Source of the DNA: a virus
Virus record (IMG/VR): IMGVR_UViG_3300021373_002516
Span: 1-36,201 of that record
Length of the DNA stretch: 36,201 bases
Direction: 5' to 3' (one strand)
In this document: positions 10,401-34,047 of the stretch, piece after piece
Numbering within the stretch: the stretch's first letter is position 1
Layout of the letters: every line of letters begins with the position of its first letter
The notes under the pieces: model-generated
Databases searched by the model: none
The model's input: only the letters and a program-made list of their open reading frames with translations
Told to the model about the DNA's origin: nothing
Translations under genes and position numbers: made by a program

Positions 10401-10528
10401 TTGCGTTAATGCATCGTATATTTTTCGGTCGCAAGCTAACCGAGTCCAGCACCGGGACGTTTGCGACATACATAACCACTGACACTGGTCACACGCTCAG
10501 TGATGGCAGCAACTCAATTATAATATAA
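10397..10528 (+). CDS. Very small protein before tail fibre, 43 aa
   Basis: The start overlaps the upstream TGA (ATGA) and the stop overlaps the next ATG (TAATG), filling an otherwise empty 127-base gap exactly. This is strong support for a real gene. The product is Thr/Ser/Ile-rich (ATYITTDTGHTLSDGSNSII) after a basic N-terminus (RIFFGRK). No known family is recognised. It may be a minor virion component. Confidence 0.6.
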   Translation: MIALMHRIFFGRKLTESSTGTFATYITTDTGHTLSDGSNSIII

Positions 10529-11154: not shown

Positions 11155-11159
11155 AAATT

Positions 11160-15909: not shown

Positions 15910-17655
15910 ATGCCAGTCTATTTCAATGATGCAACCGATGATCCGATTACTTATGATTCCCAACCAGTCATCCAGGGAATCAACTCATACGGTCGCGCAT
16001 CGACCATCCCGCCCGTCTTGGCAAGCAATCTCGAGAACATAGAGCTTTCGACTGCTGGCATTACAAAGTCTCGGCGCGGCGCCTGGAAGATCTCCAACGA
16101 TACATACACAACGATCCACGCGATCATCGCCCTGCGAGTCACCACCTGGGATTACGGGTTGATGATATTTGCAGATGGCAATGTGTATCTGCATACGCCA
16201 ACCACCACCGGGATCTTGTTCACCGGGGAATACGATAGCTCGGCTTTACCGCATCAGTGCAGTGTAACAGAAATCAATGGAGCAGTATATTTTACCGATG
16301 GCACGGGAGACATACTTGCTGTTCGTCAGACTGGATCTGAGGACATTCTGGTTGATGATGATGGCAACAGTGTATGGGATGATGTTAGCACTATCGTCAG
16401 TTACGATGTTGCCGTTGAGATCGCAGATACGGACTCACCGGAAAATACTCGAGCGCTAACATCTCACATGTTTCGTTTGTTTTGTGCGACAGGCATCGAC
16501 ACGCTTCATGTGTCACATATCTTGCCCGAGGTTGGTAGCGATGATGCTGGCGGAACCGAAAGTTCAGATCCGGGCAACTCAGACTCTGCAACAGGAGATG
16601 CATTTCCTCCGCTAAATTCCATCAGGGTTGGAACGGGTAGCTCGGATGCGATACGTGCGATTGTCCCGTTTAAAGATTTCCGAATTGCGATCCTCAAAGA
16701 GAATTCAATTTACGTCATCGATGCAAACCCATCACTGACGCCTGACCAATACAACGTGCAGATGGTCTCTGATAAAGTTGGTTGCCTGGCAGAAAAGTCA
16801 GCGGTCAGAGTTGGGGATGATATACTCTTTCTCAGCCGAGACGGTGTTCGTTCAGTAGGCACTGCATTCCAGCAGGACCAGATTGCAACCAGCGATCCTA
16901 TATCGCTACCTATCCAAGATATCATTGAGGAAATCAACTGGGGTTCAGCTTTAAAATCGTGCGCGTCATTTTGGAGGGGCCGATACATACTCGCAGTTCC
17001 AACAGGATCTTCAACTGTTCCTAACACTGTCCTGGTATACGATACCAATTTAAAACAATGGGCCGGGAGGTGGTCTGGATGGCAACCATCGATGTTCGAT
17101 ATTTATGAGCCATTGAATGATCGTCGACGTTTGGTATGGGCGGATACAACTAACAACAATGTCGCTTACTTGCGCGATCATATAGACGAAGATTCGACCA
17201 CCGAAAACGATTACGCCGATTACCTGGGATCCAGTTACACTCAAGTGCCGTTCGAGATTCTTACTCGCGGTCTTACGTTTAACGATCCTATATCACCGAA
17301 GACATGTGATTTTCTCGAAGTAGAATTTTTTAAAAGCAAAGCTCGAGCGAACATCACGCTGATCCCCGATGGAGGCGACGAAGTGATCCTAGATAGCGGT
17401 CAACTAGTCGACACTGGAACTGGTGAATTGAGATTGGACTTTGTTCTTCCAGCGGTGTTAGGCAAGCCAGGAATCGTACGCCACAACATGAGTTTAACAG
17501 GGACGAACCAGGGACGAGAGTTCCAGGTCAAAATCACTAATTCAACGGCAACTCAAATTACCGAGGCCGGACTGGAACTGGATGATCAGAGATACATCGC
17601 ACTGCGAAATGTGAACCTCGGAGCATTTATCGAAACACTAGAAAAACAGGTTTGA
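15910..17655 (+). CDS. Tail nozzle/tubular B-like protein
   Basis: This 581-residue, mostly beta protein has short repeated strands of the 'hRLFCATG', 'IRAIVPFKDFRIAILKENSI', 'DDILFLSRDGVRSVG' and 'LVYDTNLKQWAGRWSGWQP' kind. These patterns resemble beta-propeller blades as in podoviral tail nozzle proteins. The start (NSYGRASTIPPVLASNLENI) matches the 'G...n.rPf..P.....NV' opening of that class. It should form the distal tube that DNA passes through. It lies between the adaptor and the ejection proteins. Confidence 0.75.
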   Translation: MPVYFNDATDDPITYDSQPVIQGINSYGRASTIPPVLASNLENIELSTAGITKSRRGAWKISNDTYTTIHAIIALRVTTWDYGLMIFADGNVYLHTPTTTGILFTGEYDSSALPHQCSVTEINGAVYFTDGTGDILAVRQTGSEDILVDDDGNSVWDDVSTIVSYDVAVEIADTDSPENTRALTSHMFRLFCATGIDTLHVSHILPEVGSDDAGGTESSDPGNSDSATGDAFPPLNSIRVGTGSSDAIRAIVPFKDFRIAILKENSIYVIDANPSLTPDQYNVQMVSDKVGCLAEKSAVRVGDDILFLSRDGVRSVGTAFQQDQIATSDPISLPIQDIIEEINWGSALKSCASFWRGRYILAVPTGSSTVPNTVLVYDTNLKQWAGRWSGWQPSMFDIYEPLNDRRRLVWADTTNNNVAYLRDHIDEDSTTENDYADYLGSSYTQVPFEILTRGLTFNDPISPKTCDFLEVEFFKSKARANITLIPDGGDEVILDSGQLVDTGTGELRLDFVLPAVLGKPGIVRHNMSLTGTNQGREFQVKITNSTATQITEAGLELDDQRYIALRNVNLGAFIETLEKQV

Positions 17656-18086
17656 CCATTGAGGACGTTATTAAATTTGCGAGCGAGAATGGCAACGGAA
17701 AATTATTTTCAGATTGGACGGAATCCGAGGTCAAACAGCACCTCTGCCTCCATGCGAAAAACAAAACGCTCATGGTCGCCGAGGAAAATGGAATCATGCG
17801 CGGGTTCGCAACGTATCGCCGGATCAAAGATTTCACCGGGGATATTGTGCCGCATTTTTGGGAGCCGAATTGCTCGACGGGTGAGCACGTATATTTCCAC
17901 GAACTTTGCAGCGCTGGGGAGTCTGCGACATACACATTGTTTACCAATTTTGAAGAGCACAACAAAGACGCCAACAAACTGATTTACTGGGGCCATCGTC
18001 AATACGATTTAAAACGATACAGATACAGAGACTTTAAAAGATTAATGTTATGGGCAAACCGAAACCACCAGCACCACCAGACATAG
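17652..18086 (+). CDS. GNAT-like protein of the ejection cluster
   Basis: This 144-residue protein has a start ambiguity. The frame opens with TTG, overlapping the upstream TGA (TTGA), and no ATG exists close by. The segment KNKTLMVAEENGIMRGFATY and then an FHELCSAGES-like strand fit the central beta strands of the GNAT acetyltransferase fold. The C-terminal half (DANKLIYWGHRQYDLKRYRY) is basic and aromatic. Small GNAT-like proteins sit before internal virion protein genes in several podoviruses. No clear acetyl-CoA pyrophosphate loop is visible, so enzymatic activity is doubtful. Confidence 0.55.
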   Translation: MTIEDVIKFASENGNGKLFSDWTESEVKQHLCLHAKNKTLMVAEENGIMRGFATYRRIKDFTGDIVPHFWEPNCSTGEHVYFHELCSAGESATYTLFTNFEEHNKDANKLIYWGHRQYDLKRYRYRDFKRLMLWANRNHQHHQT

Positions 18087-18928
18087 CAGCAGCCAACGAG
18101 GCCGCTGTATACGCTGATATCGATACGTTGCCGATCCGGAAACAGATCGAGTCCGCTTCCACGATGGGAACATCCGTAACGTACACGGATCCAAAAACGG
18201 GTGAGCAAAAGACCGCTGACTTTACCGGGTTCGGTGACATTGATCAGATGCGTAATCAGCTCGAGTTTATGTCTGAGTCCGCCAGGACAATTGCAGAAAG
18301 CCAATTGGACGTTCAGGAGGAGTTCGGTGAGAGAGCAATTAGGCAGAGACTTAAAGAGCTTGAACTCTCGGATCCCCAGGGAACTGAAATCAGAAAGCTG
18401 CTTGGTGAGGAGGCGAAGAAAGATCTTGAGGCTGGATATGGTTTAGGTGATGAATTGCGAAGCCAGGTCACACAGTCCATCAGGGGAGCCCAGGCTGCTC
18501 GAGGGAATGTGCTGGGGGACGCTAATGCAGCGGCCGAGGGATTTGCTCTTGGCGACGCTGCCATTCGATTACGTCAACAGAGACTAGCTAACGCATCGAG
18601 CTTCCTCTCAGGCATAACTCCAGTTGCTCAGTTCGGAGCAATCTCTGGGGCGCAACAGGGCGCCGCTGGTTTCAACCCGATGGGCATTCAACAGGGAGCC
18701 GGGCTCAATCCAAACGCTATGCAGATGGGCGCAAACTTCGCTCAACAATCTTACAAGCAAGCTAGTTCAAACGCATTCCAGAGCGCGGAGATGAACCCGT
18801 GGAATACCGTTCTAGGCGCGGTTGGTGGAGCAGCTACATCAGCACTCACTGGCGGAGTTGGAAGTTTAATGGGAGGCGGCAAATTTGGTGCTGGAGCAAG
18901 CAATGCATTAGGAGGGGCGTGGTCATGA
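18050..18928 (+). CDS. Internal virion/ejection protein A
   Basis: This 292-residue protein has a Pro-rich start (GKPKPPAPPDIAAANEAA), a helical middle rich in Arg/Glu/Ala, and a Gln/Asn/Gly-rich region. It ends with a glycine-alanine hydrophobic segment (WNTVLGAVGGAATSALTGGV). This layout is characteristic of the small ejection protein of podoviruses (T7 gp14-like), which enters the host outer membrane to start the DNA channel. It overlaps the GNAT-like gene by 37 bases and the next gene by 4 bases. Confidence 0.75.
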   Translation: MGKPKPPAPPDIAAANEAAVYADIDTLPIRKQIESASTMGTSVTYTDPKTGEQKTADFTGFGDIDQMRNQLEFMSESARTIAESQLDVQEEFGERAIRQRLKELELSDPQGTEIRKLLGEEAKKDLEAGYGLGDELRSQVTQSIRGAQAARGNVLGDANAAAEGFALGDAAIRLRQQRLANASSFLSGITPVAQFGAISGAQQGAAGFNPMGIQQGAGLNPNAMQMGANFAQQSYKQASSNAFQSAEMNPWNTVLGAVGGAATSALTGGVGSLMGGGKFGAGASNALGGAWS

Positions 18929-20355
18929 GTTTTAGGAGTGGATTCGCACAGGGCACACAGATAGCGGCACAACTGCAAAACAAAGCATCGCGTGAACGAG
19001 CGTCCGATTTACAGGAAGCTCGAGACAGGATTAACGCCGAAGCTCAGAAACAGTTAATCGATCAACGCAAAACTGAGTTTGAACGAAAGCGAGACGTTTA
19101 TCGCAGAACCGAGGAGGATCGCTTAACGAGCGAGACTGCCCTCGGTTATTACGCATCCGAAGCTGGCAAGCTGAAGTTCAATGACCGAGAAGATGTAACC
19201 AAGTTTCGAGAACTCACGGCATACACCATGAGCGAAATGAAAGATCCAGAGGTGCTTAAAAAGTTCGGCATGATCATGGACATGCATCAGCAGAAGTATG
19301 CATACAAAAAGCAGATTGATCGGACCATTCGAGCTGAAGAACTCAGCACTGAGTATGAAGATCTCGCTGATGAAATGCACAAAGAGACTGGCGTTACGCT
19401 TAGTCCCAGCGATCCAGAAAGTCGCAGCAGACTCGATGCCTGGGGGCGTAAAAAGAAAATGGACGCTCACTTAATGAAACTAGGTGTAACCTACGAAGAC
19501 GCTGGAGTGGACGGGAGCCAAGAGGGATTGTCCGCAAGCCAGTTTGCGACGATGAATAATTATCTCCTCGAGAGCGGTAAGCAACAGCGCATTTACAACG
19601 ATAAAACAGATCAACAGAAGAACGCTGAGACTGTTAAGAAGCGAGTGGATGCGTTACCGGAAAACGCAACTCTCCAAGACAAAATGGCAACCACTGCTGG
19701 AAGTAATGAGCTGAAGCAGTTTGAGGCTGAAGCACTGAGCCAGGCATTTATTGCGATCGATCTTGTGACTAGTTCCGAGAGGCAGATGAAGAATCTGGGC
19801 ATACCGCTACAGGGTAATGAATTTGGAACATGGTTTGCTGGTCTTAAAGAATTCGCTGCACCATTTACCGGTCAAGATGTAAGCAACATAAAGGCATTTA
19901 GGTCTACAATAACTCAGAGCGTGCCCGTCCTGGCTAAAGGTGTATTCCAAGAGACTGGCGTTTTAACGGATGAGGACGTTCGCAGATACTCAGCAACTAT
20001 TGCGAGTATCGAGAACACTCCCAACGCAAACGAGAGAGTCATGGCAGCAACCCAATCTCTTATTGCCAGGATAACTCGAAATCAGCTTCGCAGGTCAGTG
20101 TCTGGAGGGAAAGATGTCAGCGCTTATGTTGAGGATGCTGCTCAGTTGGCAAACATGCCAAAAGCAGCTTATTGGGGGCCATCAGATCTTTCTGGGGAAG
20201 AGCTCAAAACTTTTTACCTAAAAGAGCTCTACCGCGATCTTATAGAGGACATGATTATTTACCCTGGCGAAAAGTTTAAATACAGGGTGGGTAACCAGTG
20301 GGAAGAAATGGTAGTTCCTGAAAAGTCATTCTTTGATACCAATGCCAAACAATAA
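18925..20355 (+). CDS. Internal virion/ejection protein B
   Basis: This 476-residue, mostly helical, charged protein begins MSFRSGFAQGTQIAAQLQNK, followed by a long Arg/Glu/Gln coiled-coil-like region. ATG 18925 overlaps the upstream TGA and follows an aggagg site about 9 bases away. An in-frame upstream opening (18799) would read the previous gene in another frame and is rejected. It corresponds in order and composition to the second ejection protein of podoviruses (T7 gp15-like), which forms part of the periplasmic conduit. Confidence 0.75.
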   Translation: MSFRSGFAQGTQIAAQLQNKASRERASDLQEARDRINAEAQKQLIDQRKTEFERKRDVYRRTEEDRLTSETALGYYASEAGKLKFNDREDVTKFRELTAYTMSEMKDPEVLKKFGMIMDMHQQKYAYKKQIDRTIRAEELSTEYEDLADEMHKETGVTLSPSDPESRSRLDAWGRKKKMDAHLMKLGVTYEDAGVDGSQEGLSASQFATMNNYLLESGKQQRIYNDKTDQQKNAETVKKRVDALPENATLQDKMATTAGSNELKQFEAEALSQAFIAIDLVTSSERQMKNLGIPLQGNEFGTWFAGLKEFAAPFTGQDVSNIKAFRSTITQSVPVLAKGVFQETGVLTDEDVRRYSATIASIENTPNANERVMAATQSLIARITRNQLRRSVSGGKDVSAYVEDAAQLANMPKAAYWGPSDLSGEELKTFYLKELYRDLIEDMIIYPGEKFKYRVGNQWEEMVVPEKSFFDTNAKQ

Positions 20356-23300
20356 ACCAGATTTCAGCAAACTCACACTTGATAACTTGGCCCCTGCTGA
20401 GTCGAACGAGGTTGATTTCAGTAAACTTTCTCTCGACTCGTTAAGCACTGCGAACCAAGAGCAGCCAGACTTCGATGCGTTGCCATCGCTTTATGATGAG
20501 TTTGAGATTGCCGATGATGAGCAGCTTTTCAAGATGATGAAAGCTGAACCTGGGAAAGCATACTCCCGGGAGCAGTGGGATCGTTATCTGACCTATATGA
20601 GTGAGAAAGATTTCTCTCCCATGCAGGTCACTAAAGCATTCTTCGGCGGAATCGGCCCGATGCTTACTGAGATCGGCCAGGGAGGATTAGAGGTCGCAAA
20701 AGAGATCAGCAAGCTCTACGCAACCGATGGATCTGGCCGCGATAGGAAAGCTCTCGAGAACATCGCAGGGATGACTGCGGAGGGATCACTGAGAGCAGGG
20801 TATGACATGGGAATGATCGGTCACATGATTGCTCTCAACGAATCTCTCACTGACACTGTCGCCACTCCGAGCGGAGGTCTCCAGGGAGGTTACGGATCCG
20901 GATACTCATTTCCGAATTACCGTAAACGATCCTACAAAGATTTTCCAGCAGACAAAAAAGACAAAGTGATCGGCAGAGCAATGAAGCTCGCCAAATATAT
21001 GTCTGACCGCGAAAAGTATGCGACAGGCCAAGACACCATCATGGGGGACTTAACTTCGTTCTTTGCCGATGATGAGGAGTCCGTTGAACAATTTGAAGCG
21101 GTCAAAGATACATTGGCCGCCACTATCAACCCCAAAGGAGCAGAGTTCCTATCTATCTTTAACCCGTTTGCTCCCGAGGCACTGGCCGCTGGGGTTGGAC
21201 GCAAACTTGCAAAGCCTGGGAAGTTGGGCGTCAAAGATAAAGTCTTGGCGGCAGGTCAAATTGGAGCGCAAAAAAGCGCTGACGCCGCTGGTTGGGTTGG
21301 TGAGAAGCTCGACAATGTTAAATTAAAAATGGGTGACGAGGCATCCGATCTTGCAAAAGTTCGAGGTGTTTCTCCTGGCATGATGCAAAGCTCGTTCCAG
21401 ACAATTGCAGACACTCTCGCCGCAACCCGGCGACAGGTCGCTAATTCTGGATCGGAAAATTTCTTCATGAAGATGAGCCGCGATGGTGATTACGCCCGAG
21501 CGAATCCCCGGATGCATCAGCTCATGCGTTTTCTCGGTCACGGCATATACAATGATATTCCTGCATTGAGCCCGGTTCTGAGAACCACCGCACCAGCAGC
21601 TCGAGTGGTAGTAGATACTGCTGGAGGCGCTATAGAGGGAGGCGTTGCTGGCGGGGCCATGGTGTTACCAACCATGGACGAAGAGATGATCGGCACAACC
21701 ATGGCATCTGGTTCCACTTTAGGCGGAACCGTTCAGGGAGGACGTAGCGCTTTTTGGAACAATAAAATAAAAGTCAACGCGGCTGCTGAAACATTCCTAA
21801 ACACTCTTGGGGCCGACTTGCGAAAGATCGTTGATGATCGCATTGAACGCGGCGAGCTTGGCATGGGAGATATTGCCCGCATGGCGTCTTTTGAGAATTG
21901 GCTTAAAGGCTTTACTCGAGGAGTCACTGGGGACACTGACGTTGATTTTATCTACTGGGATGGTGCGGATCTGGATGTTGTTGAAAAATACTTAACTGAC
22001 AACGGAGTCGACCAAGCACTCAAGATTGATGAGGTCTCAGAAAACTATGCTAACCAATTTAACAACGCGGATGCTGATCGGATTGTAAGTCCAACCAGGG
22101 GTGTTCAAATTCTGAACACTCGTCGGGCAGGGAGCAAACCAATTGCGCTAGTCAACCTCAACTCAATGAGTGGCACTACCAGTATTCACGAGGGCATCCA
22201 CGCGCTCAAAAGACTGGACCTCTACCGAGGAGCATTCGATGACCTCGAGTCCATACTGTTTGATAAGCCTGGCAGAGGTGAGGACTCTTCAACTAATGGC
22301 CTCGTCAGTGACGCGGATCTTCAGAGATACTACCGCGAATACCTAGATCGATTTGTCCAGGCCGCTCAGACTCCAGAGCAACAGGCGCAAGCCAGAAAGC
22401 TGATTAAAGACATCGTCAAAGCTGATCAGTTAAGAGCAGATAACGCGACTCCAGGAACTCCCCAGGCAGAGGTTGAATACTGGCAGAGAGTGAGGATGAA
22501 AGAGGAAGTTGTCGCGGATGTATTCGAGTCATTCCTGGCTAATAAAGATCCTCTCTACATAACCAAGACTGGACTCAAAGATAACACAACTAGACTAGCT
22601 CGACCGTTTTCGCAGGTTGTCAAAACCATGGGCTCATGGATCATGGCCAACTCAAATGGAGAGGCGTTATCCGTTCAGAATTACACTGGCCGGGATGGCA
22701 AACGATTGGCGTATGACAGTCCCGAGCTCGAGGCGACAATCAACGGTCTCATCAATTTCAGAAACAGAGTCACCCAGAAAGACGGCAAACTAACTCGAGC
22801 CGAAGCGGCCGAGGGCGAAACCGGAGATGCGTTCAAGAGGACTCAAATTAAGCGGGGCACTGCACTCGCCAAGAGCCTGGAGAGCAGCTTACTCGTCAAA
22901 CACGATGACGAGGGGCGAGCAGTCTATGACGCTGACGGGAACATTGTTTTTGAGGACAGTCAAAAAGCAGTCAGGGATAAAGAGCGGAAGCGCCAGACTT
23001 TTCTTCGAGACACGATCACAAATCAGATCATTGAGGATACTGAATCTATCCCCGGCAAAGAACCAGTGAGGTTCGATAAAGACACTGAGGAGATCTCTGG
23101 TGATTACTTGCATGAGGACACGATGAAGCTGCTTCGTAATGCTCCCCGGAGCGTTATGCCTAAGTCGCTTCTCGAGCATCTTGAAAAAGTCAACGAGGCG
23201 ATCAAGACAGGGAACGTAATCGAGATGGATTACAATCCCCGGCTGTTTACAAAGAACGGTCGCAGCACCGCAAAAGCCCAATACTCATCAGCGCTGGGGT

Positions 23301-26300
23301 CCACGATCCGGTTATCCATTCCGTTCAGCATGCGGATGACTAAAGCTGGAAATTTCACGATCAATACACTCGACGTAACTCACCTGATCGATAAATACAA
23401 CCGGGTGCTGGGTGACAGTAAGCGCTCAAAGTACATTCTAAGCGTCTGGGGCAATGATAGGAACGCGTTTAATAAAGATCTTGCTAAATACCTCGAGAAC
23501 ACGATCAACCCGCCTGAACAGTTTGATGGCGGACTCGCCTCTGGGCTGGATGCGGATCCAAAAATAGCCCGGCAAAAAGCCAATCGCTTGTCTGCATTTC
23601 TAGGCTTTAAAAAGAAAGACATCGACTGGAGGAACAACGAGGCCCGACAGGACGCGATGCTCAAAGCTCTCAACCCAGAGCGCCAAGATAACTTGATCAG
23701 GACTCGTCGACTAGACGGCATTAATTCTGTTAGGTCAACGGATCTACCTCGGATGCCACTGAGCCGATCTGGGTATAAACGAATTCAGAGAAACTTTGAG
23801 CCTGGTGAGATTGGCGGTTTTAATGTTCGCAACGAAGATGGAGCACCATTTGCTGATCTGATCGCAAGCGGAGAGAAGACTATCGAAACTCGGCCCAATA
23901 CTCGGTTGGACTCTCAGATAGGTAAGCGCTTAAAGATAATCCGCACTACAGGAGTTGGATCGGAAGCTCGAGTTGTTGGAGAAGTGACCATTGGCCCTCG
24001 AAAGTTTTACGGAACAAAAGAGGAGTTTGACGCTGATCTCGACAAGCATTTTGTTACTGAAGAATCAAAGTTTGCGTTCCCTGAGACAGGTAAATACGGA
24101 TATGAAATGCTGGATCCTGTAAAGTATCAGGAACCGTATCCGTTAACGGTTAACAAAGGCATCACAACAACCAGGGTTGTTCCCGGTCGCAGATATGAGC
24201 CTGGATCTATCGACTCAAAAGAGCGTCTGAAGAAGTTGGACGTTGGCGATAAGACAGGAACGCAAGTTGGTCTCAGTATAACAGATTATCCCAAGAACCC
24301 AGACTCCAGTTCAGTAGCTCTTCCAGCTCGAAGAGGTTTGGTGAATGAGAATATCGTGGGTGTTCCGGACACTTATGACGAGGTGTTAAACATCGTTGAA
24401 GAGCAGGTAAATCGGATAGCGGCAATGAGGCAACGCGATCCGGAATTTGCAAAGCGAAGCGCCGGGTTTTATGAGGACATGGCTCGAGTTGGTCTCAACA
24501 TAGCGACACAACTCAAACCCAAGAACAGGTCGGAGTATGACGCCGCCGATCTTATAATTCGGCTGCTCGCTTTAGGATCCCCGAGGTCTTCAGTTAGTTC
24601 CAACTCATCCAAGAGCGTTCGCTCTGCAATGGCCCCTGTTGGCGCTTCAGCCGGGTTTAAAATAGGGATGGGGACAGCACAACTGGGCGCCAAGAAAACA
24701 GCGTCTGATTGGAACCAGGGTAATCATTTCGATGTTCTGTCAAAAGATGCTATTGGTGCGGACGATAAAGTTCGCAACTTTTATTTAAATGCACTTGCTG
24801 ACCTCATAGACATGGCAGCAGCCCAGGGTAAAAAGAACGATGTTCTGATGCTGCAAAAGCGAGTAGCAAAGACTTTAGGGCTACACAAGACAGGTGAGTT
24901 TGGGAAAGACAAACAGGATCAAGTTCAGACTTTTCTGGATGGATTGGCAACTGTCGATATGTGGGACATGGCCGCTAAAGGTTACGCGCATCCCGCGTGG
25001 ATTACTCCCAAAGGCAGGGAAACTAAGAAAGAGTTTGCTTGGTCTGTTCCCAAGCACCGAGTGGAAACAACTTTTAAAGATCCCCTCTGGAACAAAGCTC
25101 TATCTGATGCCGAAATTCAAGTGACGGGCGATGATGGAAAAAGCAAGAAACGAGCAGCAACAAGTCCAATGGAACTGGATTACCAGTTTGCCAGGGCGTT
25201 TCAGATTGATGGTCGCCGGGACTGGGATCCAGTATCCTGGGAAGCTCGAAAAGCCGAGGGATTTGATAGTGACACTAAGTGGAGTTATTACGCCAAGAAC
25301 GATGAGGGCGGACTCTCTCCCGGCGGATCAGGACCGGTTTACGATGCCCAGCAAATGATTGATGGGCTAATTGCAGATGAGCTGAATAGTCAGGGAGTAG
25401 CCTCTTTCTACGGCAAGACAAAGATTAAAGCTCGCAACGCTCAAGAGATACTCTGGGCTATTGAGAAGCTCGATAATCCATACTTATCCAACAGGGAGTT
25501 GGTCCTGTTTGGGGACCGTCTCAACGATTTCACTGACGCCCTGAAAGTCATGTTCGAGGGCGGGGATGTTGCTGACAAGATCTCTGATAAAGCAGCTCGA
25601 GCAATTGCTCTGATTGAGGACACATACAATAAAGTAGAGTTGCAGACAATCCCTATTGAAGTGACCAGTCAGGGTAAAAGCGCTGAAGCAAAAGCTATTC
25701 AAGATCTAGAGTCTGAAGTGGGAGTTGAGCCCATGACTCAGGCAGTGGCTGATAACTTGGTCGAAGAACTGCAATCTGCTCTGGATACGGTCAAGTCATC
25801 CGTTCTGGTCAACAAAGTTAAAACAGGGCAGGGCGGTTACATGGAGGGGGGTAAAAGTGCAGTGACTCCAAACATTGTCATAGAGCTTCGAGGCAAGCCA
25901 AACGAGACCAGGGAAGTCATGGAGGCAATGAGTCTTGCATGGGATCAAGACGGTGGGAACTTGATGAGACGCCCTACGCTGGAAGAGTTGTCAGGGGAAA
26001 GAAAGCTGAACACTGCCATCAAGTTTGACACAACAGAATTGAGCGCAAAACAGAAAGCTGAATTTTACGAGGATCTTTCAAAACTGACAGATGGTAACGG
26101 CCAGTCATTCTTGACTGGGTATACAGAAACAGCCGATGGAATGTTTATTGGCGATCAGTTTTACGATGGTGACCTAGAAGCCGAAATTGAAAGAAGCGCC
26201 GAGAAAATAGAGGAAATTGCATCCAACCATAATGTCTTTGAGTTTATTACAGAGAACATCGTCATTGAAGATTTCAGTCGACCAGCGGAACAGGCGGACA

Positions 26301-26680
26301 GGGACAAGCTAATTAAGAAGCAGAGCAAACTGTCAAAAGCAGTTTACGAGCTATCTTTAAGCAAGATCCAGGAAGTCAGGAAAAAGATCAAGCAGTCTGG
26401 AACAAAAGATGTTAACCAAAAGCTGGAGGTTGTTGCTCGAGCAATGCGACTTGCTAAAGGCACTAAATCAGTCACCGGGAAATCAGCCAGGGACAAGCTC
26501 AACGTAGCATTGTCCGAGCCCATTGACTTGTTAGCGATGGACGGTGATATTGACTTAGCAGAGGCTAAAGAGATTAAAGCCGATCTCAAAAAGATCGTTA
26601 ACAAAATCCCGCTCAGAAAAAAGAGAGCAAAGAAAAAAGCGTTGCCAAAAAAGAAAACTAGTGTCAAAAAGAAATCATGA
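20342..26680 (+). CDS. Giant ejected polyvalent protein with HExxH and ASCH-like domain
   Basis: This 2112-residue protein is the largest in the window and occupies the place of T7 gp16. The N-terminus has two copies of a DFSKLxLDxL motif. Residues about 550-740 hold a metallopeptidase-like region: TSIHEGIHAL gives HExxH (H616-H620), and a later KEEVVADVFESF (about 720-731) could supply the third zinc ligand. Residues about 1155-1265 form an ASCH-like domain, with GEKTIETR (1177-1184) matching the GxKxxExR signature and a VVGEVTIG strand after it. The last about 30 residues are extremely Lys-rich. No lytic transglycosylase motif is seen. Such multi-domain proteins match the 'polyvalent protein' class that phages inject with DNA to counter host defences. 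ATG 20342 is chosen over the TTG at 20333. Confidence 0.85.
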   Translation: MPNNKPDFSKLTLDNLAPAESNEVDFSKLSLDSLSTANQEQPDFDALPSLYDEFEIADDEQLFKMMKAEPGKAYSREQWDRYLTYMSEKDFSPMQVTKAFFGGIGPMLTEIGQGGLEVAKEISKLYATDGSGRDRKALENIAGMTAEGSLRAGYDMGMIGHMIALNESLTDTVATPSGGLQGGYGSGYSFPNYRKRSYKDFPADKKDKVIGRAMKLAKYMSDREKYATGQDTIMGDLTSFFADDEESVEQFEAVKDTLAATINPKGAEFLSIFNPFAPEALAAGVGRKLAKPGKLGVKDKVLAAGQIGAQKSADAAGWVGEKLDNVKLKMGDEASDLAKVRGVSPGMMQSSFQTIADTLAATRRQVANSGSENFFMKMSRDGDYARANPRMHQLMRFLGHGIYNDIPALSPVLRTTAPAARVVVDTAGGAIEGGVAGGAMVLPTMDEEMIGTTMASGSTLGGTVQGGRSAFWNNKIKVNAAAETFLNTLGADLRKIVDDRIERGELGMGDIARMASFENWLKGFTRGVTGDTDVDFIYWDGADLDVVEKYLTDNGVDQALKIDEVSENYANQFNNADADRIVSPTRGVQILNTRRAGSKPIALVNLNSMSGTTSIHEGIHALKRLDLYRGAFDDLESILFDKPGRGEDSSTNGLVSDADLQRYYREYLDRFVQAAQTPEQQAQARKLIKDIVKADQLRADNATPGTPQAEVEYWQRVRMKEEVVADVFESFLANKDPLYITKTGLKDNTTRLARPFSQVVKTMGSWIMANSNGEALSVQNYTGRDGKRLAYDSPELEATINGLINFRNRVTQKDGKLTRAEAAEGETGDAFKRTQIKRGTALAKSLESSLLVKHDDEGRAVYDADGNIVFEDSQKAVRDKERKRQTFLRDTITNQIIEDTESIPGKEPVRFDKDTEEISGDYLHEDTMKLLRNAPRSVMPKSLLEHLEKVNEAIKTGNVIEMDYNPRLFTKNGRSTAKAQYSSALGSTIRLSIPFSMRMTKAGNFTINTLDVTHLIDKYNRVLGDSKRSKYILSVWGNDRNAFNKDLAKYLENTINPPEQFDGGLASGLDADPKIARQKANRLSAFLGFKKKDIDWRNNEARQDAMLKALNPERQDNLIRTRRLDGINSVRSTDLPRMPLSRSGYKRIQRNFEPGEIGGFNVRNEDGAPFADLIASGEKTIETRPNTRLDSQIGKRLKIIRTTGVGSEARVVGEVTIGPRKFYGTKEEFDADLDKHFVTEESKFAFPETGKYGYEMLDPVKYQEPYPLTVNKGITTTRVVPGRRYEPGSIDSKERLKKLDVGDKTGTQVGLSITDYPKNPDSSSVALPARRGLVNENIVGVPDTYDEVLNIVEEQVNRIAAMRQRDPEFAKRSAGFYEDMARVGLNIATQLKPKNRSEYDAADLIIRLLALGSPRSSVSSNSSKSVRSAMAPVGASAGFKIGMGTAQLGAKKTASDWNQGNHFDVLSKDAIGADDKVRNFYLNALADLIDMAAAQGKKNDVLMLQKRVAKTLGLHKTGEFGKDKQDQVQTFLDGLATVDMWDMAAKGYAHPAWITPKGRETKKEFAWSVPKHRVETTFKDPLWNKALSDAEIQVTGDDGKSKKRAATSPMELDYQFARAFQIDGRRDWDPVSWEARKAEGFDSDTKWSYYAKNDEGGLSPGGSGPVYDAQQMIDGLIADELNSQGVASFYGKTKIKARNAQEILWAIEKLDNPYLSNRELVLFGDRLNDFTDALKVMFEGGDVADKISDKAARAIALIEDTYNKVELQTIPIEVTSQGKSAEAKAIQDLESEVGVEPMTQAVADNLVEELQSALDTVKSSVLVNKVKTGQGGYMEGGKSAVTPNIVIELRGKPNETREVMEAMSLAWDQDGGNLMRRPTLEELSGERKLNTAIKFDTTELSAKQKAEFYEDLSKLTDGNGQSFLTGYTETADGMFIGDQFYDGDLEAEIERSAEKIEEIASNHNVFEFITENIVIEDFSRPAEQADRDKLIKKQSKLSKAVYELSLSKIQEVRKKIKQSGTKDVNQKLEVVARAMRLAKGTKSVTGKSARDKLNVALSEPIDLLAMDGDIDLAEAKEIKADLKKIVNKIPLRKKRAKKKALPKKKTSVKKKS

Positions 26681-27945: not shown

Positions 27946-27995
27946 CTTGACTACGGATCAGGAGGTTTGGGGTTCGACTCCCTACGGGTGTACCA
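27946..27995 (+). other. attP core: 3' half of tRNA-Arg(ACG)
   Basis: This stretch reads as the anticodon arm through CCA of a tRNA. It has anticodon stem cttga/tcagg, loop ctacgga (anticodon ACG at 27953-27955), variable aggtt, T-arm tgggg-ttcgact-cccta, acceptor strand cgggtgt, discriminator a, and CCA. There is no D-arm or 5' acceptor strand upstream, so it is not a tRNA gene. A tRNA 3' half immediately before a tyrosine integrase gene is the usual form of an attP core, which restores the host tRNA-Arg gene on integration. The 5' limit of identity with the host is unknown. Confidence 0.88.
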
Positions 27996-28015
27996 TTTTT
28001 TCAGGGGGCACTTCA

Positions 28016-28045
28016 ATTGCTTGCAAGAACAACAACGCAAGCAAT
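28016..28045 (+). promoter_or_regulatory. Perfect 9-bp inverted repeat abutting the int start codon
   Basis: attgcttgc (28016-28024) and gcaagcaat (28037-28045) are perfect complements around a 12-base A/C-rich loop, and the ATG of int follows directly. It replaces any Shine-Dalgarno site. It could be a translational control hairpin, an operator, or an integrase/Xis arm site; a related ttgtaagcaat occurs at 27929. Confidence 0.6.
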
Positions 28046-29101
28046 ATGAAAATAAAAAAGTTCTCTCTATTCAAGCGCGGCAAAAAGTGGTCTGCGAAAA
28101 CCTCCAAACAGGGTACAGTCTATACAGTATCTACCGGCACTTCCAACAAGTCTGACGCCTGGGAAATTGCTCCCCGAAAGCTGGCGTTAAAAATCCAGGC
28201 AGACCGGGCCCGAGGCGCTTCCGTTCGATCAGCGGTCAATCATTACTTGGACTACAATCAGGACTCCCGGCCAAAGACCAAACAGGGCGTTGTCGGGTTC
28301 GTCAAAAACTACCTCCAGACACTCGGGCTGGACTGGGAGACGCAAGCCAGCGAAGCATTCAGCAAGCGCTCGGCGATTGAATTCCAGCAACGCCGTTTGC
28401 GCGGCATTTCTGCTAGTGATCGAGACCGTATTGCCAGATCGACTAACAGTATTTTGCGCTCAGTAAAATCGATTTACAGTGAGCGGATTCTCGATACTTA
28501 CAAGACCATCCCCGAGCATGTCAGCGACTTTAAGCGGGTGCGTTCGCTTAGGTGCGGGACAGTGCAATACACGGTTGTCGACAAGCGCGAATCCATTCGC
28601 CAGGCGATCGAGCGTTGCGAGAAACTTAAAGACACTAGCCCCGGTGCATACATAAGCTATTACCTGTCACTCCATGCCGGGCTCAGACGCGGCGAAGTGG
28701 CAGCGGCCAAGTGGGATTGGCTAACTCCCCAGGGGATCCTCATTCAAAACGATGGAGACTTCCAAACCAAGTCCGGACGATCCCGGCTAGTGCCCCTCTC
28801 AGCAGCTCAGATTGAGCATCTGCGATCGTTTCAGGGCGCATCTGATTACATTGTCCCCGGCGCATACACGAGCAGGTACAGAGTATATCCGGACGAGGTA
28901 GCGCGTATTATTCGGGAGTGTGGTATTGGTGGATCCAAGTCATTTCATGAGCTACGAAAATACTACGGAGCAAACGTAGCAACTCAGCTCGGAATCTTTC
29001 ACGCGCAAAAATATCTGGGGCATCACTCGCCGGATCTGACCAGTAAATATTACGCTGATATCATCGATGCAAAGCCTGTTGAAATAAAAATTCTTGCATA
29101 A
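28046..29101 (+). CDS. int: Tyrosine recombinase integrase
   Basis: This 351-residue phage integrase has the full catalytic set in the C-terminal domain. R214 is in HAGLRRGEVAAAKW, K242 in FQTKSGRSRLVPL, H301 and R304 in SFHELRKYYG, H326 in KYLGHHSPDL, and the nucleophile Y335 in TSKYY. The N-terminal part is Lys-rich and includes a core-binding helical domain. ATG 28046 is chosen because the upstream extension (from 27947) would translate the tRNA-like attP core. It should recombine the adjacent attP with a host tRNA-Arg(ACG) gene. No excisionase is recognised; the 55-residue protein at 30093 is one small candidate. Confidence 0.95.
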   Translation: MKIKKFSLFKRGKKWSAKTSKQGTVYTVSTGTSNKSDAWEIAPRKLALKIQADRARGASVRSAVNHYLDYNQDSRPKTKQGVVGFVKNYLQTLGLDWETQASEAFSKRSAIEFQQRRLRGISASDRDRIARSTNSILRSVKSIYSERILDTYKTIPEHVSDFKRVRSLRCGTVQYTVVDKRESIRQAIERCEKLKDTSPGAYISYYLSLHAGLRRGEVAAAKWDWLTPQGILIQNDGDFQTKSGRSRLVPLSAAQIEHLRSFQGASDYIVPGAYTSRYRVYPDEVARIIRECGIGGSKSFHELRKYYGANVATQLGIFHAQKYLGHHSPDLTSKYYADIIDAKPVEIKILA

Positions 29102-30260: not shown

Positions 30261-30304
30261 AAACAGAAGACGATAACGATGCTGGAATTAAAAGAGATCA
30301 ATAA
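30191..30304 (+). CDS. Tiny lipoprotein or membrane protein overlapping the 55-aa gene, 37 aa
   Basis: In another frame of the 55-aa gene an ATG opens a 37-residue ORF. It has a strong hydrophobic stretch with a lipobox-like end (VQIIPVLGIIVLGGC) and a short charged tail. The stop is one base before the ERF start (TAATATG). The overlap is 70 bases. Hydrophobic coherence and close junction to ERF favour it being real. It could be a superinfection-exclusion type lipoprotein, but no family is recognised. Confidence 0.45.
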   Translation: MELVQIIPVLGIIVLGGCVLGGIKTEDDNDAGIKRDQ

Positions 30305-30305
30305 T

Positions 30306-30806
30306 ATGACAGATAACGCAACAACAGATCAGAACGATAAAATCGCAAAACTATGGGCAGCGCTGGCGAAAGCTCAAACCAAATTAAAAACGATTCCCAA
30401 GAGCGGGCTGAACCCACACTTCAGGAGCAAGTATGCGACACTCGACGATATCCTAAAAATTGCTCTTCCAACTTTTGGAGCGTGCGGAATATCAATCACT
30501 CAATGGAATTCGACTACCGAGCGTGGCGTGAAAGTGCGGACGGTTATCGGCCACGAAGATGGCGCAAGCATCTCGGATGAGCTCGAGCTTCCATGTGATA
30601 TTAGCAAACCACAATCTTTCGGATCCGCATTCACGTATGCCCGGCGCTACGCTCTACAAAGTGCGCTAGGCATAGCGGCCGAGGAGGATGATGATGGGAA
30701 CGTAGCTCAAAGCTCATCGGTAAATCAACGCCGAGGAGTGACTAGCAAGCCCAAAAACGCTGCACGTAAAGTGCCTGGAACCGATCCTAAATTCACATTC
30801 GATTGA
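30306..30806 (+). CDS. erf: ERF family single-strand annealing protein
   Basis: This 166-residue recombinase has the ERF motif order. IAKLWAALAKAQTKLK is followed by PHFRSKYATLDDILKIALPT, then a VKVRTVIGHEDG strand pair, and KPQSFGSAFTYARRYALQSA with the conserved 'G.a.TYarRYaL...lGi'. ERF proteins form rings that anneal complementary single strands in phage recombination and genome circularisation. ATG 30306 is preferred over 30279 because it sits just after the upstream stop and has a purine stretch. The operon continues with an exonuclease, SSB-like protein and a resolvase-like nuclease, giving a full recombination set. Confidence 0.92.
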   Translation: MTDNATTDQNDKIAKLWAALAKAQTKLKTIPKSGLNPHFRSKYATLDDILKIALPTFGACGISITQWNSTTERGVKVRTVIGHEDGASISDELELPCDISKPQSFGSAFTYARRYALQSALGIAAEEDDDGNVAQSSSVNQRRGVTSKPKNAARKVPGTDPKFTFD

Positions 30807-30808
30807 TT

Positions 30809-31792
30809 ATGAGCTCGGAAAGAAAACATCACGATTTTGGATGCAGCAAATGGCCGGACCTACTCCGGTGCGCGGATTATAAATCAACTGGCGGATCATC
30901 CCCGGCGGCGGAGCGCGGGACTCGCATTCATAAATACTGGGAACTCATTGGAACGAACCAGGATTTGCCAGAGGGCTCGGATCCAGAGGAAGTCGCCAAC
31001 GCTGCATGGGCGGCCGGAGTGGTCGACTCACTGGCGGATGCTGCCAACGTTGAGTGGGAGCAGGAAATCAATTCAGAGACACCGGAGTATTTCGGTTACC
31101 TCGATGCATGCTGGTATAAAAATCCAACGACGATCGTTATTTGTGATGGCAAGAGCGGCCAGGGTAACGAGGAACAGTGGATCCAGTTGGTAGGTTATGC
31201 CAACGCCATGATCCAGGAAGACGATAACATCGAGCGCTGCATTCTGCATTTTATTTACTGGGACAAGCGGTCACTGAGAACCTATGAGTTTTCTCGCGCC
31301 GAGGTGTTAAACGAAGTAAAGAAACTTCTACACCACATTTCAACGGGCACCAGAAACACTGGGGTTCAGTGCGGGAGATGCGCTCACTATGAGACATGCG
31401 GACAGGTGCAGGGGATCCTACTCAGGACATGGCAAACCGATTGGGCCGGAGTCTGGAACTCACCGGATTCACTCGGAGAGATCATGGATGACTTGTCTTT
31501 TCTGGAGAACATGAAAAAGCGAGCGAGCTCCAGGATTAAAGAGCTCATTGCAGAGGGCGTTGAGGTCAGTGGCTACAAAGTCTATGACCGTAAAGGTTCA
31601 AGTAAAGTCGACACGCTTAAAGCTTGGGAGGATCTAAAAGAAACCATGAGCGCTGATGATTTCCTCAAGTGCTGCTCAGTAAATCTTAAAGCTCTTCAGT
31701 CAACTTTTCAGCTTCGCACCGGGGAGGAGTTGAGCGGTGAATTCATTATCCCCGGCAAACCATCACAGACACTAACCAAATCGAGAAAATAA
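30809..31792 (+). CDS. PD-(D/E)XK exonuclease with Cas4/AddB-like cysteine cluster
   Basis: This 327-residue nuclease has RGTRIHKYWE (RecB-family His motif, H41), then GYLDACWY (D99), VICDGKSGQG (D113, K115) and QLVGYANAM (the QxxxY motif). Cysteines at about 12/21 and 188, 191 and 197 (QCGRCAHYETC) match the 4Fe-4S staple of Cas4 and AddB. It should resect DNA ends so that the ERF protein can anneal the exposed strands. The reading frame also opens at TTG 30803, which would overlap ERF's stop; ATG 30809 is chosen. The C-terminal about 90 residues are an added helical part. Confidence 0.88.
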   Translation: MSSERKHHDFGCSKWPDLLRCADYKSTGGSSPAAERGTRIHKYWELIGTNQDLPEGSDPEEVANAAWAAGVVDSLADAANVEWEQEINSETPEYFGYLDACWYKNPTTIVICDGKSGQGNEEQWIQLVGYANAMIQEDDNIERCILHFIYWDKRSLRTYEFSRAEVLNEVKKLLHHISTGTRNTGVQCGRCAHYETCGQVQGILLRTWQTDWAGVWNSPDSLGEIMDDLSFLENMKKRASSRIKELIAEGVEVSGYKVYDRKGSSKVDTLKAWEDLKETMSADDFLKCCSVNLKALQSTFQLRTGEELSGEFIIPGKPSQTLTKSRK

Positions 31793-31793
31793 T

Positions 31794-32084
31794 ATGCCAC
31801 ATAAGTATACGAAAATAGCAAGCGGACGGTTGTTTAAAAACGCAACCGAGGATGAAAACGGAAACCCCAGACGAGGACCGTCACTGAGTAATTCCAAAGT
31901 TGAGATTATGGAAGATCTTAAAGCCGGAGATACTGTCGAGCTGGCGGGATGGGTGAACAAAAACGATGACGGTGAACAGACGTTGACCATCACTGTTACC
32001 AAGAAAGAGTTCATGGGCGATGATCAGCAGCAGCAGTCACGCCCGGCGCCTAAAGTCACCGCTGATGATATTCCACCATTCTGA
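31794..32084 (+). CDS. SSB-like single-stranded DNA-binding protein
   Basis: This is a 96-residue protein with an OB-fold-like beta pattern. It has KYTKIASGRLFKNATEDENG, then a strand/turn VELAGWVNKNDDGEQTLTIT, and then a Gln/Pro-rich linker. Its end, ADDIPPF, is the acidic tip by which bacterial SSB proteins recruit partner enzymes (usually DDDIPF). With ERF and the exonuclease it makes a three-gene recombination unit. At 96 residues it is much shorter than typical SSB, so it may be a compact phage version. The stop is two bases before the next gene. Confidence 0.72.
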   Translation: MPHKYTKIASGRLFKNATEDENGNPRRGPSLSNSKVEIMEDLKAGDTVELAGWVNKNDDGEQTLTITVTKKEFMGDDQQQQSRPAPKVTADDIPPF

Positions 32085-32086
32085 TC

Positions 32087-32458
32087 ATGGTTCACTCCCG
32101 CAACAAAGGCAAACGAGGTGAGCGCGAGTTTGCCCAGGTGCTAATACACTACGGGTATCCAGCTCGGCGCGGATCTCAATACAGCGCTCAGACCGATGAT
32201 GGAACTCCATCACCGGACATACATTGCGCTGATTTGCCAATACACTGGGAGGTCAAAAGAGTTAACAAACTCAACCTGCGAGACGCTATCTCCCAAGCAA
32301 AAGCTGATAGCTCTCGCTATGGTTGTGAACATTGGGCTGTTGCCTGGAGAGAGGACCATGGCGAGTGGGTAATCATGACATCGCCAGACACTTTCTTTGC
32401 AGCAACCCGTGGAGATTTCGCCGGAACAATTGAGAAGAAAATCTCTGAGATAAGTTGA
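32087..32458 (+). CDS. Hjc-like PD-(D/E)XK nuclease / putative resolvase
   Basis: This 123-residue protein shows NKGKRGEREFAQVL (E12/E14), then GYPARRGSQYSAQ, PD (43-44) and HWEVKRV (E55, K57). This order matches small Holliday junction resolvase-like nucleases (archaeal Hjc, phage 'PDDEXK' proteins). It should resolve branched DNA before packaging. It follows the SSB-like gene closely. The stop is followed directly by the G-rich hairpin at 32468. Confidence 0.8.
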   Translation: MVHSRNKGKRGEREFAQVLIHYGYPARRGSQYSAQTDDGTPSPDIHCADLPIHWEVKRVNKLNLRDAISQAKADSSRYGCEHWAVAWREDHGEWVIMTSPDTFFAATRGDFAGTIEKKISEIS

Positions 32459-32467
32459 AACCGGTGA

Positions 32468-32489
32468 GGGGGGCGCGAGTGCGTCCCCC
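32468..32489 (+). promoter_or_regulatory. G-rich hairpin with GAGT loop between stop and next start
   Basis: ggggggcgc pairs with gcgtccccc (one wobble) around GAGT. It is followed by an AT-rich stretch and ATG 32500, 10 bases after the stem. It closes the resolvase gene 9 bases after its stop. As with the 9897 and 29213 elements, the only Shine-Dalgarno-like purines are in the stem, so the hairpin should control or protect the downstream start. Confidence 0.75.
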
Positions 32490-32499
32490 ATTTAATTTT

Positions 32500-33063
32500 A
32501 TGATAATAGCAATAAGCGGTAAGAAGCATTCCGGCAAAAGTACAGCGGCCGGAATCCTAGAAAAACATTTGGGCGCTGGGGCGATCAGGATGAGCATTTC
32601 GGATCCTATCAAGCGCGAAGTTGCCAAGATCTTTGGGCCGTATGACGAATCCAAAAAAGAATATCTCCGGCCAGTTTATCAAGTGGTAGGGCAGGTAGGC
32701 AAGCAGGTCTACGGCCAGACAGTCTGGCTGGACATAATGTGGGCTGAATGGCAGAAGCGGATGCCAGCATTCCATACACTGCTCATCGATGATGTTCGGT
32801 TTCCCTATGAGGCTGAATTCTTGGCAGAACACGGTGCTCACGTATGGCGGATACAGGCGCCGGACACTGACGATAGCGGCGACGATGACATAAGCGAAAC
32901 CAGCGTCGATCTGATCAAACCCCACGCATACATAACCAACTTCAAAAACACAAACTTCGATAGAGATATACTCAATGAATACAACAGATCATGTAGTCAA
33001 ACTTTTAAAAATAGTAGCGAAACACTTTCACATGAGCCAGGACGAGCTCTTCAACAAGACTAG
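32500..33063 (+). CDS. Deoxynucleoside monophosphate kinase-like P-loop protein
   Basis: This 187-residue P-loop kinase has MIIAISGKKHSGKSTAAGIL (GxxxxGKS at 7-14), SISDPIKREVAKIFG after it, and LLIDDVRFPYEAEFL, the phage dNMP kinase pattern 'v..DvRfpnEae.i' (T4 gp1-like). It likely phosphorylates deoxynucleotides for phage DNA synthesis. ATG 32500 is chosen because the upstream extension to 32455 reads through the GAGT hairpin. The C-terminal 30 residues overlap the next gene by 89 bases in another frame and look non-homologous, so the essential domain may end earlier. Confidence 0.8.
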   Translation: MIIAISGKKHSGKSTAAGILEKHLGAGAIRMSISDPIKREVAKIFGPYDESKKEYLRPVYQVVGQVGKQVYGQTVWLDIMWAEWQKRMPAFHTLLIDDVRFPYEAEFLAEHGAHVWRIQAPDTDDSGDDDISETSVDLIKPHAYITNFKNTNFDRDILNEYNRSCSQTFKNSSETLSHEPGRALQQD

Positions 33064-33280
33064 GGACGTTCGGACAATCCAGGCTCGGGCCGCTGCCACA
33101 AAAGTGCTTCGAGATATAATGACTTTGAGCTACCCGCAATTGGCTCATGTCTTTAAGCAGACTCATGGCGCCAGTCATAATGCCTACAAGCGAGCTAACG
33201 AATGGTTGAGGACCGATCGAAACTTTCGACGTAGCTTTGTCGCTCTGGAAAGCGAGCTCAGAAAACGAGGAGAGCTGTGA
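32975..33280 (+). CDS. Free-standing DnaA domain IV-like DNA-binding protein
   Basis: This 101-residue protein has the order of the DnaA C-terminal helix-turn-helix. HFHMSQDELFNKTRDVRTIQ is followed by ARAAATKVLRD, then a SYPQLAHVFKQTHGASHNAY turn, and NEWLRTDRNFRRSFVALES. In DnaA the corresponding loop is GGRDHTTV, which contacts DnaA boxes. Only the S-H part is kept here, so the specificity probably differs. No AAA+ domain is attached. With the O-like and DnaC-like genes directly downstream it may bind the phage origin or recruit host DnaA. It overlaps the kinase gene by 89 bases and the next gene by 4 bases. Confidence 0.75.
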   Translation: MNTTDHVVKLLKIVAKHFHMSQDELFNKTRDVRTIQARAAATKVLRDIMTLSYPQLAHVFKQTHGASHNAYKRANEWLRTDRNFRRSFVALESELRKRGEL

Positions 33281-34047
33281 AATACATACGGTTCTACAGT
33301 GATGCCTGGTTATCATCTACCAGGATAATGAGCAACGAGGCTAAAGGCGCCTGGATCGATTTGCTCTGCTTTCTTAACGCTCAGTCAACGCCAGGAGCAG
33401 CCGAGCTGAGTGAGAGTCAACTCTCCCGGCTATGGGGAGTGGATACTGAAAAAATGCATGAGCTGATCTCCGACATACAGACTTCACAGGTCTGCGAGAT
33501 CGAGGTTGGCGATAAGATACAAGTCAAATGCAATCGACTAATCAGGGAGGCTGAAGAGCATGCAGAGTTCATTGAGAAGTGCCGGGAAGCTGGAAAAAGA
33601 GGGGCCAAAGTGAAGCAGGGAACCCTAAAGCCTACCCTAAAGCCTACCCCTAAGCGAACCCTACAGGGTACCTCAAAGCGAACCCATGAGGGTACCCATA
33701 AGCATACTATATCTAACACTAACACTAACTCTAATAAACTATCATTGCATAAATCTCCGACTCTCAAAGACGTTCTCGATTTTTGCGATCGCGAGAAAAT
33801 TTCACAGGACTTAGGAACTAATTTCTACGACTACCACGAGGGACAACAACTCTGGATAAACAAGAACGGCAAACCCATTCAATGGTGGTTTGTTTTACGA
33901 ACATGGGAGAAACGAGGATATGGCAGAGGCAAAACAAATAGGACAGGCGGTCATGAAGTTGACCGGAATCGAGGAAACGCCAACGAAGACGCGTCCGCCA
34001 GTGATTTTGCGGAAGTGGGCAGAGTGGTTCAAAATACAGCTACTTGA
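33277..34047 (+). CDS. Lambda O-like replication initiator/primosomal protein
   Basis: This 256-residue protein has an N-terminal winged-helix-like domain (YIRFYSDAWLSSTRIMSNEA, then GAWIDLLCFLNAQ), as in DUF1376 and phage replisome organisers. Next is a basic linker of seven T-x-K/Q/E-x repeats (about residues 116-143), encoded by the iterons at 33622-33705. The C-terminal part has YHEGQQLWINKNGKPIQWWF, the 'w.....Gk.i.nW...l..W' ending of O/DnaT-like proteins. A DnaC-like gene follows. The gene order and internal repeats match lambda O-P. Its 3' end overlaps the loader gene by 128 bases, unusually long. Confidence 0.75.
   Translation: MKYIRFYSDAWLSSTRIMSNEAKGAWIDLLCFLNAQSTPGAAELSESQLSRLWGVDTEKMHELISDIQTSQVCEIEVGDKIQVKCNRLIREAEEHAEFIEKCREAGKRGAKVKQGTLKPTLKPTPKRTLQGTSKRTHEGTHKHTISNTNTNSNKLSLHKSPTLKDVLDFCDREKISQDLGTNFYDYHEGQQLWINKNGKPIQWWFVLRTWEKRGYGRGKTNRTGGHEVDRNRGNANEDASASDFAEVGRVVQNTAT
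33622..33705 (+). repeat. Seven 12-bp tandem iterons inside the O-like gene: candidate replication origin
   Basis: Seven in-frame 12-base units of the type ACC-CTA-AAG-CCT follow each other without gaps. The first two are identical, and later ones vary at the second and fourth codons (e.g. ACCCTACAGGGT, ACCCATGAGGGT, both palindromic). An AT-rich stretch with six-base CTAACA-type repeats follows at about 33706-33760. Iterons plus an AT-rich unwinding region within the initiator gene is the structure of the lambda origin. Confidence 0.7.

Follow-up and report, generated by a model that had tools for sequence, protein, structure and literature searches.

Polyvalent proteins, as described by Iyer et al. 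in 2017 (PMC5512222), are giant phage-encoded chains of disparate domains, which have an HExxH...E metallopeptidase (MPTase) as their hub and are encoded beside virion genes. Autoproteolysis by these MPTases was proposed in the same work, whose account of phage P1 presents DdrB, a giant head-associated polyvalent protein with an MPTase, as processed before packaging. The virion RNA polymerase (vRNAP) of the N4 type, in the passages of PMC5512222 and PMC12633501 devoted to it, is likewise a giant protein that is ejected and in which an HExxH domain lies beside a large domain of unknown fold. Here we analyze a giant gene of the 36.2-kb virus record IMGVR_UViG_3300021373_002516 from IMG/VR (36,201 nucleotides; "the window" denotes this whole stretch), whose product combines an HExxH region, an ASCH domain and a large C-terminal domain in one open reading frame (ORF). 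The initial annotation of this DNA reported a 2112-residue protein with HEGIH at residues 616-620 and GEKTIETR at residues 1177-1184, counted from an ATG start, and the ORF and both motifs are confirmed; in this work residues are numbered from the TTG at 20333, so that ATG-based numbers equal ours minus 3. The "polyvalent protein" idea raised there is also supported by our comparisons, as the protein lies in a virion-gene context and its relatives carry, in the same position, cassettes from the families typical of that class (ART-PolyVal, LPD37, Kinase-PolyVal and RadC). DdrB is likened to it by description, with the difference that its MPTase is C-terminal, whereas here the peptidase-like region lies upstream of the cargo. 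Unlike the polyvalent proteins of PMC5512222, the window family exhibits a single defined slot with natural presence and absence of its contents, repeated linkers specific to each scaffold, and a C-terminal domain to which we could assign no Pfam family. The main text of PMC5512222 mentions neither ASCH nor linkers, and we found no description of scaffold-specific repeated linkers in the open-licence literature. They were absent also from the initial annotation, and the anatomy of the slot and its linkers is the new part of this work.

The first scan of IMG/VR revealed 26 relatives of the giant protein, labelled here as loci L002, L003 etc., while no tblastn match was found among 50,697 phage records. 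The slot comprises residues 1157-1287, and its contents are entirely different among the relatives, including ART-PolyVal, an ADP-ribosyltransferase (ART) domain, as well as LPD37, Kinase-PolyVal, RadC, and Phage_L5_gp82 together with ASCH; ART-PolyVal scores over the cut-off in L012, L026, L013, L015 and L036 and weakly in L003, L004 and L010, and the slot is empty in L009 and L031. Three relatives (L003, L004 and L005) are 86-98% identical to the window protein by segment over residues 1-1156, and about 96% just ahead of the slot, yet they are unrelated to it inside the slot, where they carry an ART-like cassette in place of ASCH, and their C-terminal halves are merely 36-60% identical. The ASCH cassette of the window, on the other hand, shares 91% identity with the L008 cassette, compared with 55% and 71% for the flanks, which points to exchange of the cassette as a unit. 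Two cases of gain and loss define the borders: L009 corresponds to L008, with 98.1% and 95.7% nucleotide identity on either side, except that it lacks a 986-bp stretch lying exactly between two copies of TTTGAACCTGG, and L003 corresponds to L004 plus 396 bp exactly between two linkers, i.e. the short peptides that stand at the cassette borders. In these alignments, genes that share 90-98% identity upstream differ by entire cassettes, the junctions of cassette gain and loss coincide exactly with linkers, and the ASCH domain is, by the same comparisons, one interchangeable cassette, which near-identical phages replace or do without. The combination of zincin and ASCH, singled out earlier as deserving study, is ruled out as a fixed pair, because close relatives swap ASCH or do without it.

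The linker at each cassette border is repeated within one protein and differs between proteins (FEPG, FMPA, RFSP, AFCPTG, ALGSG). The types are FEPG/YEPG/FDPG in the window clade, LMPP/YMPP in L012, L014 and L026, FMPS in L038, and LSP/FSP/YSP in L013. A first linker could be defined in 14 proteins; their own type of motif was counted 0 times ahead of that linker and 42 times after it, and swapping the linker types between these proteins gave p = 1e-4. The types had been picked after inspection, and therefore we ran two motif-free tests, in which the similarity between the upstream and downstream flanks of a cassette was compared within a protein and between swapped proteins. For ASCH (18 clusters) the similarity was 539 against a mean of 396 and a maximum of 532 in 50,000 permutations (p < 2e-5); for ART (39 clusters) it was 992 against a mean of 725 and a maximum of 844 (p < 2e-5). 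In both sets, the same ASCH or ART domain bears the linker of its host scaffold. In a same-protein control, the flank similarity was in the top 5% for 7 of 17 ASCH proteins (p 1e-5) and 16 of 40 ART proteins (p 3e-11). The linker rule therefore extends past the window family: L203 has four copies of AFCPTG, L207 five of [FY]MPA and L210 two of ALGSG. In proteins with an MP linker at the end of the ART, other [FYL]MP-type sites are found at 1.74 per 1000 residues, compared with 0.12-0.26 in the other classes. The linkers are located in the low-confidence ends of two AlphaFold2 models.

Ahead of the first linker, the scaffold contains a peptidase-like domain. In an alignment of 20 relatives, mostly 13-20% identical to the window protein, H619, E620 and H623 of HEGIH and E725, which sits 102 residues past that motif, are among just 11 columns in which conservation is at least 90%, and HExxH is present in all relatives whose sequence reaches this region, except L047 and L048. 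Judged by this conservation, the HExxH is not a chance occurrence, and the zincin-like region belongs to the conserved scaffold and not to the exchangeable cargo. A conserved HExxH followed by a Glu in a later helix is a gluzincin-type signature, and the region agrees with what Iyer et al. describe for the MPTase (PMC5512222). In the AlphaFold2 model (predicted local distance difference test, pLDDT, mostly 53-83, with dips to 33-38) the HExxH and E725 lie on separate helices. The putative zinc peptidase of the initial annotation is supported as a signature of near-invariant residues, and less so as a fold: in the segment-by-segment structure prediction and fold search recommended there, the model matched zincin/HExxH structures weakly by VIA-align (Z 3.6, 3.2 and 2.7), its own confidence being modest, and the ASCH cassette was poorly modelled (pLDDT 27-51). 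A Foldseek search of the PDB with the zincin-to-ASCH model returned noise only, and Pfam matches to M48, DUF6782 and M78 were below threshold.

Peptides that are constant within a scaffold, different between scaffolds and bracket each cargo would look like cleavage sites of a cognate protease. We therefore propose, as a reading to which we give about an even chance, that the giant protein is a virion-packaged, self-processing polyprotein, in which the N-terminal zincin cuts the scaffold-specific linkers and releases the cargo. The scaffold (N-terminal virion region, zincin-like peptidase and WYL-like barrel) would be followed by the cargo slot and the 828-residue C-terminal domain; the protein would be packaged together with the genome; its own peptidase, or another protease of the same phage, would read the linker, so that the cargo is freed in virion maturation or following injection; and the freed ASCH domain may act on host RNA, nucleotides or modified bases. 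Several observations weigh against this proposal. In the same-protein control, flank similarity was found in just about 40% of the tested proteins. The zincin fold is backed by weak structural matches. The N4 vRNAP, in the passage of PMC5512222 that deals with it, is packaged unprocessed in spite of its HExxH domain (it differs from the window protein also in that the latter gave no match to an RNA polymerase family). Five proteins (L177, L192, L103, L121 and L097) are complete and punctuated by linkers, yet lack HExxH in their own chain, and therefore a zincin acting in cis is not the sole reader of linkers; it is ruled out as the universal reader for the whole class and kept for the window family. 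Finally, the linkers within the window family share 8-11 identical bases, so that recombination of the DNA at these repeats is another way in which they could be maintained.

The last point, together with the gain and loss of cassettes exactly at linkers, argues for linkers as recombination ports and nothing else, through which domains of an uncut multidomain chain are gained, lost or swapped by homologous or illegitimate recombination; moreover, genes for an Erf-like annealing protein and an exonuclease are present in the window phage. Nonetheless, synonymous codon variation is frequent among linker copies, and those of L013, L038 and L116 keep the peptide through codon changes that include Ser AGC/AGT versus TCA, which argues that the peptide is kept and not only the DNA. 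Recent DNA duplication is insufficient as the origin of the copies for the same reason, i.e. the codons differ among them. DNA homology by itself also hardly accounts for related aromatic-x-Pro peptides that are of different types in different scaffolds (MP, SP, EP), and we consider ports without cleavage unlikely. A second alternative, which we regard as rather improbable, is that linkers are recognition tags and not cut sites, one per cargo domain, and serve head packaging or unfolding and translocation through the tail. It agrees with the presence of one scaffold-specific linker per cassette border, confined to the first linker onward, and with the occurrence of linkers independently of an in-cis peptidase, but we found no such phage packaging tag in the open-licence literature, and the conserved HExxH domain of the scaffold would be left unexplained. 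If the self-processing polyprotein is extended to the class, many giant phage polyvalent proteins would be punctuated polyproteins, each with a private linker "word" and a cognate protease, in which incoming cassettes adopt the word of the scaffold, and cargo such as ASCH, ART or kinase domains is plug-and-play and released singly; this generalization is tentative and we place it somewhat short of an even chance.

The cargo of the window itself is better defined by sequence than by structure. The excised cassette scored 25.2 bits (E 2.7e-5) with Pfam PF04266, above the curated cut-off of 21.2 bits, so that the ASCH-like domain suggested earlier is borne out; a whole-record search gave 25 bits, and the full-length protein 20.9 bits, just below the cut-off. 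Relatives of this domain were found at 69 viral loci, both as small stand-alone genes and as parts of giant proteins, and in 20 aligned phage sequences the G, K, E and R of the G-x-K-x-x-E-x-R motif (GEKTIETR, residues 1180-1187) are invariant, as are a further D and H in F.AD.DKH.V. On these grounds the ASCH domain is real and not a chance match. The same GxKxxExR-type signature is found in EOLA1/CXorf40 and in YqfB-type ASCH proteins, and EOLA1 is the nearest solved sequence, albeit a weak match (E 0.022). YqfB is an N4-acetylcytidine (ac4C) amidohydrolase with the catalytic triad Lys21/Thr24/Glu74 (PMC9599836). An ac4C hydrolase of this type is ruled out for the cassette: the catalytic Thr at Lys+3 is replaced by a Glu that is invariant in the phage subfamily, and the NCBIfam ac4C model matches 2 of the 20 phage members only (best E 0.07). 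ASCH proteins elsewhere hydrolyze acylated cytidines (PMC9599836), ZmASCH cleaves single-stranded RNA according to a work cited in PMC13160076, and a protein with an ASCH-like fold strips glucose from modified phage DNA (PMC13160076); by analogy, our best guess is that the cassette acts on nucleotides or modified nucleic acid.

Two further domains border the slot. The β-barrel ahead of it gave best VIA-align Z-scores of 6.8 (PafBC), 6.5 (BrxR) and 6.3 (CapW), values within the range obtained for models without clear relatives, so that its resemblance to WYL domains is suggestive. The C-terminal domain was modelled with high confidence (pLDDT 88.8, predicted template modelling score 0.86), while Foldseek found no significant match in the PDB (best E 0.27) and Pfam no family in 22 members, for which reason a vRNAP in this region was rejected. 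Ten matches with E<=1e-3 were found in BFVD, some of them annotated as polyvalent-domain or RelA/SpoT proteins, and this is probably a scaffold domain that giant proteins of the polyvalent type have in common. A relationship to efflux pumps was rejected, since the RND porter subdomains retrieved by VIA-align (Z up to 8.4) cover its ferredoxin-like part only, and that reading also has no significant Foldseek match in the PDB. A DUF7178-like interpretation of its motifs was dropped after Pfam gave no match.

Table 1. Features of the giant gene and of the genes ahead of it (positions in the window; aa, amino acids)
Feature	Position	Strand	Remarks
Giant modular (polyvalent-type) protein	20342..26680	+	2112 aa from ATG at 20342; 2115 aa from TTG at 20333
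N-terminal region, residues 4-480	20342..21772	+	DFSKLxLDxL repeats near start; Gly/Ala-rich hydrophobic stretch 426-444
Zincin-like metallopeptidase region, about residues 481-790	21773..22700	+	conserved HExxH and downstream Glu; weak structural matches
HEGIH, residues 619-623, putative Zn ligands and catalytic Glu	22187..22201	+	conservation
Glu725 (within KEEVVADVFES), putative third Zn ligand	22505..22507	+	near-invariant column E245 of alignment A2; model helix 234-256
β-barrel domain resembling WYL domains, about residues 920-1152	23090..23788	+	last scaffold domain before slot
Linker 1, RNFEPGE	23789..23809	+	same-protein control, top 0.5%
Exchangeable cassette with ASCH domain	23810..24187	+	PF04266, 25.2 bits; GEKTIETR at 23870-23893
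Linker 2, RRYEPGS	24188..24208	+	cassette flank comparison
Conserved C-terminal domain, 828 aa, residues 1288-2115	24194..26677	+	common to other giant phage proteins
gp15-like gene, directly upstream of giant gene, 476 aa	18925..20355	+	syntenic in relatives; putative ejection protein
gp14-like small Gly-rich protein	18050..18928	+	syntenic; 72-98% identity in five near relatives; no family match; putative identity
581-aa protein, same virion-gene block	15910..17655	+	PHROG matches; 65-99% identity in five near relatives

The giant gene follows virion genes. Upstream of it, on the same strand, PHROG matches identify terminase, major head, tail and virion-structural genes, followed by the gene for the 581-aa protein (matches annotated as amidase, virion structural, internal virion, head closure and tail appendage protein), a small protein, and the gp14-like and gp15-like genes (Table 1). 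This order, in which a small Gly-rich, a medium and a giant protein follow the tail genes, resembles that of T7 gp14-gp15-gp16, and the T7 gp16 position ascribed earlier to the giant protein is plausible as far as gene order goes; the two genes directly upstream, however, gave no match to an ejection-protein family, no gp14/15/16 family match was found in the window genes, and unlike the T7 cluster they are accompanied by integrase and Erf/exonuclease genes. No lysozyme is visible either, as remarked before, in that neither Pfam nor PHROG gave a match, the N-terminal 480 residues lying outside the fold searches. The gene order would fit an ordinary giant ejection protein, with an HExxH that is structural or belongs to a host-directed protease, an ASCH domain that aids genome entry, and linkers that are unselected spacers; some polyvalent MPTases have indeed been suggested to attack host proteins (PMC5512222). 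This explanation seems to us very improbable: flank similarity is far above the swapped and same-protein controls, and ASCH is absent or replaced in close relatives and is therefore not needed for entry.

The N-terminal region of the giant protein, a candidate virion or membrane part, diverges in step with the gp15-like gene: the identities of the latter in L002, L003, L010, L031 and L008 are 98, 90, 52, 30 and 30%, and those of the first 300 residues of the giant protein 96, 97, 52, 33 and 29%, which fits two proteins that assemble together, although a family match was obtained for neither. At its very N-terminus (window 20342-20500) a [PV]DF[SD][KA]L-type motif is present three times (PDFSKLTLDNL, VDFSKLSLDSL, PDFDALPSL), which could be a packaging or assembly signal. 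Downstream of the giant gene lie genes for an integrase (27947-29101) and for the Erf-like annealing protein, exonuclease, RusA and a DnaC-like helicase loader (30279-34534), a set that hints at a phage that is temperate or recombines, yet no prophage relatives of two virion-type proteins came to light in two scans, which covered about 85,000 genomes of bacteria and archaea. The best matches of the terminase (3932-5356) in phage records are those of Akkermansia phages (32-38% identity), a hint of a Verrucomicrobiota host. Genes of the glycosyltransferase and methyltransferase type are located ahead of the terminase (626-1774 and 2401-3012).

Some relatives exhibit peculiarities of their own. 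The giant gene is broken by a single in-frame stop in L018 (10763-10765, between ORFs 6149-10762 and 10766-12538) and, elsewhere in the gene, in L020 (3894-3896, between ORFs 3-3893 and 3897-5279), which may be due to sequencing error, natural splitting or stop recoding. L047 (6425-16090) and L048 (2766-12431) encode a divergent relative of 3222 aa without HExxH, with about 1350 further residues past the conserved C-terminal domain, for which Pfam gave no match. In L003, residues 1173-1306 form an extra cassette of about 134 residues with no assigned family between two EP linkers, a candidate for an unknown effector domain, and a second cassette of unknown family is found in the giant protein of L263 (residues 1142-1357).

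Among the weapons that phages are suspected to inject, polyvalent proteins form a widespread class, which raises the questions of whether they act whole or in pieces and by which route they swap domains. Scaffold-specific linkers make the two directly testable and predict cut sites in dozens of proteins. They also offer a way to recognize unknown effector domains by sequence, in that any stretch flanked by two copies of the linker of a scaffold is candidate cargo.

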